From: Pseudothermotoga hypogea DSM 11164 = NBRC 106472 | Lineage (GTDB): Bacteria > Thermotogota > Thermotogae > Thermotogales > DSM-5069 | DNA: 64,000 bases | Assembly: GCF_000816145.1 (NCBI RefSeq) | Contig: NZ_CP007141.1 | Location: 434,001 to 498,000 of the forward strand | Direction of reading: 5' to 3' | Shown: positions 41,241-43,971 of the stretch, one piece after another | Layout of the letters: each line of letters starts with the position of its first letter | How positions within the stretch are numbered: the stretch's first letter is position 1 | Program-made: the position numbers and the translations under genes | Notes under the pieces: generated by a model | What the model saw: only the letters and a program-made list of their open reading frames with translations | The model's database searches: none | Told to the model about the DNA's origin: nothing

Positions 41241-41352
41241 GCTATCCACACCCTTCTGGTTCAGAAGATAACCATCTCGCTCAAAGTGAGCTGAAATTTG
41301 ACTTTTAATCGGCTGAAGATTTACTCAAGATTGGCTCAAAACGAAGAGGAAA

Positions 41353-41374
41353 AAGGGGAGCAGTCGCTCCCCTT
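41353..41374 (-). terminator. Intrinsic terminator after trpB2
   Basis: AAGGGGAGC / GCTCCCCTT with a four-base loop begins at the stop codon of trpB2 and is followed on the minus strand by TTTCCTC. Confidence 0.8.
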
Positions 41375-42645
41375 CAAGAAACGTAGGCAATGAGGTCGAA
41401 CAGACCGTGGCCACTGAGGTTGAACACGATGACTTCTTCCTTCTTTTCTTCTTTCGCCCTTAGAGCTTCCTTGATCGCACCGTATATCGCGTAGGAACTC
41501 TCCGGTGCGGGTACTATCCCTTCGAGTTTTGCGAACAGTCTGGCTGCGTTGAACACTTCTTCTTGGTCGAACGCGACCGCCTCGATCAAACCTTCCTTCA
41601 AGAGCCGTGAAACGATCGGTGCAGCCCCGTGGTAACGCAGTCCACCCGCGTGGATCTTTGGAGGGATGAAATCTTTCCCGAGCGTGTACATCTTCAACAG
41701 TGGCGTCATGCCCGCCGTATCGCCGTAGTCGTACTCGTATCTTCCCTTCGTCAAGGACGGACATGCCGTTGGCTCACACGCGATGAGCCTTATGTTCTTG
41801 CCCGCCAACTTGTCCGGTACGAAGGGAAGGATCGTCCCTGCGAAGTTCGAGCCTCCACCGTGACAACCCAGAACTATTGTGGGCGTTTCGTTCAAGAGCG
41901 CGAGTTGTTTTTTGATCTCCAACCCTATCACCGTTTGGTGCAACAGTACGTGGTTCAACACGCTTCCCAAAGAATATTTCGTGCCCGGGTCGGACACGGC
42001 AACTTCTATCGCCTCACTGATGGCTATGCCCAGACTGCCCGGCATGTCCCCGTTCTTTTCGAGCAGAGACCTTCCAAAATTCGTCCTGTCGCTCGGGCTC
42101 GGCACGACATCGCCACCGAAGAGCTTCATCAAGTACTTGCGCATGGGCTTTTGCTCGTAGCTGATCCTCACCATGAACACGTTCACAGTTAAGCCGAACT
42201 TCGCCCCCGCATAGCACAGCGCACTTCCCCATTGACCCGCTCCAGTTTCCGTGACCAACCTCTTCGTACCGGAAATCTTGTTGTAGTAAGCCTGTGCGAG
42301 TGCTGTGTTCGTCTTGTGGCTACCCGTGGGGCTGGCACCTTCGTACTTGTAGTAGATGCGCGCCGGCGTTTGAAGGTATTCTTCCAAATAAGTGGCCCTG
42401 TAGAGTGGCGTCGGTCTGAAGACGGCGTACTCTCTCAAAACAGGCTCGGGGATGGGAATCTCTCTCTTCTCGCTCACCTCCTGTTCGATGAGCGCTTCTG
42501 GAAAGATCGCGGAAAGCGCCTGCGGAGAAATGGGCTGTTTGGTTCTTGGATCCAGCGGAGGATCGAGTTTGAAAGGCAAATCTGCGAGCACGTTGTACCA
42601 GTATTTCGGCATTTCTTCAACCTTCAAATCCACCCTGACTCTCAC
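41374..42645 (-). CDS. trpB2: Tryptophan synthase beta chain, TrpB2 type
   Basis: A 423-residue PLP enzyme of the TrpB2 group, which has a longer N-terminus than TrpB1 and often works without TrpA on free indole and serine. The PLP lysine is in [11 protein letters not shown] (Lys111), and the phosphate loop is [11 protein letters not shown] near 255. Both [15 protein letters not shown] and the C-terminal LSGHGLFD are standard. The GTG start has GGAGGTGA upstream. It is monocistronic, ending in its own terminator, and preceded by a complete Trp-codon attenuator. Confidence 0.95.
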
Positions 42646-42678
42646 AATTTCACCTCCAGTAGGTTTTCAAATAAAAAA

Positions 42679-42760
42679 GGGGCTCTCTTTTTCAAGAGAG
42701 CCCCGATTCGATGCGAGGTAAAGGCACGCGGTGCTTACCCCACCGAATCGGGGCAGCACC
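42679..42760 (-). promoter_or_regulatory. Tryptophan transcription attenuator of trpB2
   Basis: Three mutually exclusive stems are visible on the minus strand. Stem 1:2 is GGTGCTgCCCC (42760-42750) with GGGGtaAGCACC (42741-42730). The antiterminator pairs CGAATCGGGG (plus 42744-42753) with CCCCGATTCG (plus 42701-42710). The terminator pairs GGGGCTCTCTT with AAGAGAGCCCC (42704-42679) and is followed by six T. The GGGG of the antiterminator's 3' strand is also the start of the terminator. A ribosome stalled on the Trp codons would cover strand 1 and favour antitermination. Confidence 0.92.
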
Positions 42761-42824
42761 ACCACCAGTTCTTCTGAACGAGAATCTCTTCAACTAAAGA
42801 TTTTGTTCGACTCAGAAACTTCAC
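42735..42824 (-). CDS. trpL: trp leader peptide with three consecutive Trp codons
   Basis: The frame ends QKNWWWCCPDSVG followed by TAA at 42737-42735; TGG-TGG-TGG is at 42767-42759. From the GTG at 42824 it has 29 codons. The start is uncertain: no ATG is in frame, GAGGTGA (42827-42821) overlaps the GTG, and a CTG at 42815 sits at proper spacing behind that site. The stop codon lies inside strand 2 of the attenuator, as in enteric trp leaders. Confidence 0.85.
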   Translation of the reverse strand: MKFLSRTKSLVEEILVQKNWWWCCPDSVG

Positions 42825-42839
42825 CTCGACTTTGGTTAC

Positions 42840-42867
42840 ATTATACCACGATCAAATTCCTTGTCAA
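42840..42867 (-). promoter_or_regulatory. trpB2 promoter (TTGACA-16-TATAAT, both hexamers perfect)
   Basis: TTGACA at 42867-42862 and TATAAT at 42845-42840 on the minus strand, 16 bases apart. Transcription would start near 42833, about ten bases before the leader-peptide GTG. It lies between trpB2 and the divergent uxuA. Confidence 0.92.
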
Positions 42868-42903
42868 CTCTTCGAAGTAGAATTCAAAGTAGAGGTGAAG
42901 AAC

Positions 42904-43971
42904 TTGAAGATCGTCTTTCGCTGGTTCGGTGATGACGATCCGGTGAAGCTCGAACACATCAGACAAATCCCAGGCGTGGAAGGAATCGTCGGTGCGCTCT
43001 TCGACGTACCCGTGGGTGAAGTTTGGCCCTTGGAGAAGATAATGAAACTGAAGGCGAAGGTGGAATCCCACGGTTTGAAACTCGAAGTGATCGAGAGTGT
43101 GAACGTGCACGAGGATATAAAGCTCGGTCTTCCCACAAGGAGAAAGTACATCGACAACTACAAAGATACGATCGTGAACCTCGCAAAGGCAGGAATAAAA
43201 ATCGTCACCTACAACTTCATGCCCGTGTTCGATTGGCTCAGGACGGATCTGAGATACAAACTTTGCGACGGCTCAGAAACGATGTACTACGACGATGAAC
43301 TGGTGCGAAACATCACACCGAAACAACTCGTCGCGATGATGAAGCAGAACGCCGCGAACTTTGTCTTACCCGGATGGGAGTGGGACAGGCTCGCAGAACT
43401 GGAAAAGACTCTGAACATGTACGGAGGCATGAGGGAGGAGGATCTCTTCGAGAACTTGGTGTACTTTCTGAAAGAAATCGTTCCCGTGTGTGAACAGTTG
43501 AATGTGAAGATGGCTCTGCACCCCGACGATCCACCTTGGAGCGTTTTCAACCTTCCAAGGATCGTCACATGTCAAGAGAACATAGAAAGAATTCTCAAGA
43601 GTGTGGACAGTCCGTCCAACACGCTCGCTCTCTGCACAGGCTCGCTCGGTGTCAACACGAAGAACGACATACCAAAGATGATACGACACTTCGGTTCGAT
43701 GAAGAGGATCAGCTTCGTTCACTTGAGAAACTTCAAACTGCTTGGGGAGAGAAAATTCTACGAGAGCGCACATCCAAGCTTTTGTGGCTCGCTCGACATG
43801 TTCCAGATCGTCAAAGCTCTGCACGAAGTTGGCTATGACGGTTATCTCAGACCCGACCACGGAAGGACGATCTGGAACGAGAAAGCCAGGCCCGGTTATG
43901 GTCTTTACGACAGGGCACTCGGTGCGTGTTACATACTCGGCCTGTGGGAGGCGTTCAGCTCGAAAGACTGA
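42904..43971 (+). CDS. uxuA: Mannonate dehydratase
   Basis: A 355-residue UxuA that converts D-mannonate to 2-keto-3-deoxygluconate in glucuronate breakdown. It begins LKIVFRWFGDDDPV, and contains VIESVNVHEDIKLG (about 64-77), a long middle region with NFMPVFDWLRT, and the metal-site motifs MALHPDDPPW (about 202-211), CTGSLGV, FVHLRN and LRPDHGR (about 320). TTG at 42904 has GAGGTGAAG upstream and gives the family N-terminus; longer in-frame starts would lie in the trpB2 promoter. No other uronate gene adjoins. Confidence 0.95.
   Translation: MKIVFRWFGDDDPVKLEHIRQIPGVEGIVGALFDVPVGEVWPLEKIMKLKAKVESHGLKLEVIESVNVHEDIKLGLPTRRKYIDNYKDTIVNLAKAGIKIVTYNFMPVFDWLRTDLRYKLCDGSETMYYDDELVRNITPKQLVAMMKQNAANFVLPGWEWDRLAELEKTLNMYGGMREEDLFENLVYFLKEIVPVCEQLNVKMALHPDDPPWSVFNLPRIVTCQENIERILKSVDSPSNTLALCTGSLGVNTKNDIPKMIRHFGSMKRISFVHLRNFKLLGERKFYESAHPSFCGSLDMFQIVKALHEVGYDGYLRPDHGRTIWNEKARPGYGLYDRALGACYILGLWEAFSSKD

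Follow-up and report, generated by a model that had tools for sequence, protein, structure and literature searches.

The trpB2 gene of Pseudothermotoga hypogea DSM 11164 is very probably controlled by a classical ribosome-mediated attenuator that senses charged tRNA-Trp, and its product would make tryptophan from scavenged indole. The gene lies in a window of 64,000 nucleotides (contig NZ_CP007141.1, positions 434,001 to 498,000), the whole stretch of DNA analysed here, to which all coordinates refer. The parts of the attenuator are conserved among relatives, its 2:3 helix covaries, and the rest of the trp pathway is missing. Conserved Trp codons and pairing, together with the missing pathway, support the core reading of the initial annotation, namely that a stand-alone trpB2 serving indole salvage is under ribosome-mediated Trp attenuation. 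The attenuator recurs in most families of the Thermotogota, a phylum made up largely of thermophiles, and is relevant to the role of TrpB2, long an open question.

The trpB2 leader region

All elements of the leader lie on the minus strand. The promoter consists of a -35 box with the exact consensus TTGACA (42862..42867), a 16-nt spacer and a -10 box TATAAT directly preceded by TG (42840..42845); the two boxes match the consensus at 12 of 12 positions, and from the promoter spacing the transcript is expected to start at about 42833. TTGAC(A/T) promoters are found at a comparable distance in the leaders of most relatives. A ribosome site, GAGGTG (42822..42827), which aligns with the SD motifs of relatives, is followed by the open frame of the leader peptide, (M)SRTKSLVEEILVQKNWWWCCPDSVG (42735..42815). 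This frame ends in NWWWCCPDSVG, with three consecutive Trp codons (TGG TGG TGG, TGGTGGTGG; 42759..42767) and a TAA stop codon (42735..42737). Downstream are the ribosome site of trpB2, GGAGGTG (42651..42657), and trpB2 itself (41374..42645, with a GTG start at 42645), which encodes a TrpB-like PLP enzyme of 423 aa (TIGR01415, trpB_rel). A probable terminator with a 10-bp stem lies directly 3' of the gene (41352..41375), so that trpB2 is probably transcribed as a single gene. The promoter, WWW leader, three mutually exclusive stems, six-T terminator and trpB2 ribosome site listed in the initial annotation were all confirmed in the sequence.

No suitable ATG, GTG or TTG was found behind the leader ribosome site in the window; the sole in-frame GTG of the leader overlaps GAGGTG and has no ribosome site of its own. 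The probable start is a CTG (42813-42815) placed seven bases after GAGGTG, chosen because the homologous codon of relatives is TTG, GTG or ATG. CTG is usually a weak start codon, which counts against the attenuator reading in the window; a rare CTG start in a regulatory frame might serve the tuning of the basal level.

The divergent neighbour is uxuA. Its longest frame (42832-43971, plus strand) begins within the trpB2 promoter region, and the true start is probably a GTG near 42895, since the UxuA profile begins at residue 26.

Stability and covariation of the alternative helices

The protector hairpin 1:2 (42730..42760) pairs GGTGCTgCCCC with GGGGtaAGCACC. The antiterminator helix 2:3 (42701..42753) has as its core CCCCGATTCG paired with CGAATCGGGG, plus inner pairs, and the intrinsic terminator 3:4 (42673..42704) pairs GGGGCTCTCTT with AAGAGAGCCCC in an 11-bp G+C-rich stem (42704-42679) followed by six T. 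Strand 2 runs from the 5' CCCC arm of hairpin 1:2 across its loop and through its 3' arm, and the GGGG of strand 3 is common to helices 2:3 and 3:4.

For each leader, the 2:3 duplex was computed by pairing strand 2, taken as the bases that follow WWW, with strand 3, taken as those leading up to and into the 5' arm of the terminator. Of the 59 leaders, 57 had a duplex that no more than one of 200 shuffles equalled in stability; in the window none of the 200 did. The exceptions were L125 and L161; in L161 a significant 2:3 helix was not found in the shuffle test. The mean energy of the duplex was -28.6 kcal/mol with a leader's own partners and -15.3 kcal/mol when partners were swapped between families; strands 2 and 3 have therefore changed together between families. 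The strand sequences are wholly different, with CCCCGATTCG in the family of the window, CCCCCGATCTG in family f3, CCGGTATTTTGG in family f8, GGCAATTGTCC in Thermosipho-like genomes and CCCGGTGGGTGTCTAC in Marinitoga-like genomes.

Pairs were counted after aligning 15 leaders drawn from two families; in helix 2:3, 92.4% of the cells were paired and seven pairs carried two-sided (compensatory) changes. No shuffle matched either the number of paired cells or the covariation score, and the helix stood far above all slid controls. Helix 3:4 covaries as well.

Hairpin 1:2 has an energy of -24.5 kcal/mol in the window, compared with -15.3 kcal/mol in shuffles. Over 61 leaders its median z was -2.5; it is weak in about one third of them, and the window and family f1 have strong hairpins (z of -3 to -6.5). 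The hairpin overlaps the Trp codons or the nucleotides that immediately follow. In the two-family alignment its pairing was barely above that of shuffled sequences, and pair counts across families are uninformative for this stem because it shifts register. The stop codon lies within strand 2 in several families (CCC CCG ATC TGA), which is the placement to be expected if a ribosome that finishes the leader must cover strand 2.

Masked folding and proposed mechanism

The leader was folded in silico with the ribosome represented as a mask. Folded only as far as strand 3 reaches, with the ribosome on the first Trp codon, it formed the 2:3 antiterminator; with the ribosome on the stop codon, strand 2 was covered and the terminator 3:4 formed. 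Folded without a ribosome and with the terminator complete, the leader formed 1:2 and 3:4. These outcomes held at 37, 65 and 75°C. A ribosome masked on the third Trp codon weakened helix 2:3. In equilibrium folding the complete terminator wins even with the ribosome stalled; the switch must therefore be kinetic. That of the E. coli trp attenuator is likewise kinetic.

The mechanism that we infer, with its ribosome stalling, response to tryptophan, direction of control and source of indole, would run as follows. Transcription would begin at about 42833 and a ribosome would load on the short leader frame. With ample Trp-tRNA, the ribosome would pass TGG-TGG-TGG, reach the stop codon and cover strand 2 (or hairpin 1:2 would re-form behind it); strand 3 would then pair with strand 4, and transcription would end near 42673. 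With scarce Trp-tRNA, it would stall on the Trp codons and cover strand 1, and the freed strand 2 would pair with strand 3, so that the terminator would be blocked and trpB2 transcribed. In the absence of a ribosome, the 1:2 hairpin would leave the terminator on. TrpB2 would then join scavenged indole to (phospho)serine, giving tryptophan in a cell without an indole-making pathway.

Recurrence of the leader across Thermotogota

The sample comprised 103 Thermotogota genomes, 74 of them with a TrpB2 at E 1e-100 or better; 70 of these trpB2 genes could be assessed, having a complete gene start and sufficient sequence upstream. The leader layout was found before 61 of the 70; 60 of these have WWW or WWWW, and the remaining one has WYWW. 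The frame reaches its stop within 26 codons, usually at a distance of 70 to 230 bases from trpB2, and a terminator hairpin follows it in nearly all 61. The initial annotation had proposed an alignment with related genomes; in such a comparison, the Trp codons and the alternative pairing proved to be kept across most Thermotogota families. Beyond the 61, the leader is also present in G037, before a TrpB2 whose match missed E 1e-100. This TrpB2 (L181, 1086-2342, minus strand) matches its profiles in two stretches and so may contain an insertion or deletion within the gene; its leader is intact.

Chance was assessed on 71 trpB2 upstream regions, 60 of which contain WWW with a stop codon no more than 26 codons further on. 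The same search on the opposite strand of these regions gave none, and dinucleotide shuffles gave 0.07 such leaders on average. The P. hypogea genome has three separate sites with the arrangement TGGTGGTGG-N(55-85)-TTTTT; of these, only the one at trpB2 showed a terminator hairpin, as judged by eye. Model R1, which covers the helix families of CCCC/GGGG type (38 of the 103 genomes), found a single site in G000; the other families were recognised by reading the upstream DNA.

These figures bear on the reading that the frame is a small functional protein, or a Trp-rich frame arisen by chance, and the hairpin an ordinary terminator. Terminators and short frames are indeed common, and leader peptides that act in trans are described for other bacteria (peTrpL, in the account of PMC7298713). 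Chance, however, would supply only about 0.07 leaders among the 71 regions, and the peptide flanking WWW is unconserved, yet WWW, the position of the stop and the alternative helices are kept. The peptides of Thermotogota trpB2 leaders share only the Trp codons, which are therefore the part that is kept. The terminator, moreover, sits between the promoter and trpB2 and must therefore be regulated, as trpB2 would otherwise be nearly silent. We regard this reading as extremely improbable next to that of a Trp attenuator.

The TGC-TGC that follows WWW in the window had been proposed as a second signal, by which the leader would answer both Trp and Cys shortage and link TrpB2 to cysteine/serine supply. 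Serine or phosphoserine is a substrate of TrpB2, and the two Cys codons recur in four related genomes. The codons after WWW nevertheless vary freely: CC occurs in only 5 of the 61 leaders, and YC, HS, IS, KM, QE, SC, TP, NS, RL and others are found elsewhere. In the window, the TGC-TGC bases pair within hairpin 1:2, and their presence is explained by that pairing. A Cys signal was rejected as very unlikely, and the leader is taken to answer tryptophan.

Identity of TrpB2 and loss of the trp pathway

The window's enzyme scored 677.8 bits with TIGR01415 (trpB_rel; cut-off 518.85) and 154 bits with the TrpB1 model TIGR00263 (cut-off 392); being above the one cut-off and below the other, it is a TrpB2 and not a TrpB1. 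No trpA, trpC, trpF, chorismate-binding TrpE or trpB1 was found in the window's genus, in searches whose trpA, trpC, trpF and TrpE families match in all 14 control genomes. Likewise, 52 of the 61 leader-bearing genomes, some of them incomplete, lack trpA and trpC above the cut-off. TrpB2 enzymes are described as having a high affinity for indole (Hettwer and Sterner, 2002, as cited in PMC11917138) and as using O-phosphoserine (Busch et al., 2014, as cited in PMC11917138). Judged from sequence, TrpB2 most probably serves as a tryptophan synthase for indole salvage, with its induction triggered by shortage of Trp-tRNA. A Trp-sensing attenuator on the sole remaining trp gene matches the need of such an enzyme.

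TrpB2 might instead not make tryptophan in vivo (acting, for example, on serine), and the attenuator would then tie some other process to tryptophan. Phyletic patterns had once led to the proposal that it acts as a serine deaminase (as related in PMC1854888); against this, the same source relates that TrpB1 and TrpB2 proteins have poor deaminase activity. Leaders of the same attenuator class stand on trpE, trpD and trpB1 within the phylum (see below), and Trp control of a gene that mostly occurs without trpA or trpC fits a salvage enzyme. A role other than tryptophan synthesis therefore seems to us unlikely.

Trp-codon control in genomes without other trp genes is independent evidence that TrpB2 makes tryptophan in the cell. 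Its recurrence over nearly the whole phylum suggests that trpB2 makes tryptophan from scavenged indole when tryptophan is short, and points to a source of indole in the habitats or the own metabolism of these organisms.

Relation to known attenuators

No Rfam family matched at the gathering threshold, and no attenuator or T-box family at E 5; in particular, neither RF00513 (Trp_leader) nor, in the window, the T-box (RF00230) matched at gathering or at E 5. The best sub-threshold match was to BjrC68, a Bradyrhizobiaceae sRNA (42670-42754, minus strand; 25.8 bits, with gathering at 39), and reflects perhaps just a common hairpin-plus-terminator shape.

The leader shares with the E. coli trp attenuator (RF00513) tandem Trp codons, the 1:2, 2:3 and 3:4 alternatives, an intrinsic terminator and a stop codon placed so that the finishing ribosome covers strand 2. 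It differs in its target, a lone trpB2 rather than trpEDCBA, in its host, a thermophile of the Thermotogota, in having three Trp codons and in its helices. It works like a classical Trp attenuator, yet is outside the Rfam Trp_leader sequence family. TRAP and the T-box also control trp genes through transcription termination, but without reading a leader peptide.

The initial annotation had contrasted proteobacterial attenuation with TRAP and T-boxes in Gram-positive bacteria. This contrast is outdated, since leader-peptide attenuators also occur in Actinobacteria and a His case is known in Firmicutes (PMC2965389); as of 2010, leader-peptide attenuation was unknown outside Proteobacteria and Actinobacteria, apart from that then new His case (PMC2965389). 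The actinobacterial leaders (C. glutamicum trp and S. venezuelae trpE, as presented in PMC4833913) resemble the present one as Trp-codon attenuation outside Proteobacteria; unlike it, they act on trpE or the trp operon, in another phylum and with other structures. An RNA regulon survey published in 2013, with 11 Thermotogales genomes in its set, relied solely on the Rfam Trp leader (PMC3766115), and a 2016 survey of leader genes had Thermotogae only as a noisy group (PMC4833913). No prior report of leader-peptide attenuation in Thermotogota was found in the literature outside subscription journals. The mechanism is already known; its presence in Thermotogota and its trpB2 target appear new to the openly readable literature.

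Absence from Thermotoga and leaders in other settings

No such leader was found before trpB2 in the members of genus g13, which is Thermotoga by gene content, and in G089 (L101-L107; G089-G096), nor before trpB2 in two f2 genomes. G090 has a complete trp operon, and no leader was seen upstream of the trp operons of G089, G090, G091 and G094. The attenuator has apparently been lost in the genus Thermotoga. Thermotoga is the usual model genus of the phylum, and its lack of the attenuator at trpB2, with none seen at the trp operon either, may explain why the device escaped notice. G091, an otherwise complete Thermotoga-like genome, retains of TrpB2 no more than an internal piece (residues 164-355; G091:C1:123648-124223), probably a decaying gene.

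Leaders with WW or WWW and a terminator head the trp genes trpE, trpD or trpB1 in 14 Thermotogota genomes, the genes behind them having been named with NCBIfam for a sample. They precede trpE in Petrotogaceae-like genomes (WWWHL*), G063, G025 and G012, trpD in G018, G020 and G021, and trpB1 in G028; R1 also matches the corresponding place in G019. G002 has one leader before a trpE-like gene and another on trpB2. These leaders resemble that of trpB2 in the succession of WW or WWW, stop, terminator and start of a trp gene; they differ in that the full trp pathway is mostly present and in having peptides such as WWWHL* and unrelated helices.

Outside the phylum, Melioribacter (L172) has a leader WWWNSSLPLF* with a terminator before trpB2, and two small genomes of other phyla (L173 and L174, one of them Roizmanbacteria) have NNWWTSNLW* with a terminator at the same place. 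We consider it rather likely that Trp attenuation by leader peptides is ancient and general in the Thermotogota, that its helices were wholly rebuilt between families while WWW and the logic were kept, and that, where the trp pathway was lost, it now stands on an orphan TrpB2 as a Trp-regulated last salvage step; to judge from Melioribacter and the two small genomes, the link with trpB2 would be wider still.

The Petrotogaceae-like trpE leaders with WWWHL* are L183-L188 (G062, G047, G060, G045, G059 and G046), and L183 and L184 have a second terminator-like hairpin between the attenuator and trpE. In G012 (L180, 562-1364, plus strand), a WWWHRSLFFEG... leader and a terminator precede a gene for a TIGR04076 plus 4Fe-4S ferredoxin-domain protein, possibly an unrecognised member of the Trp regulon.
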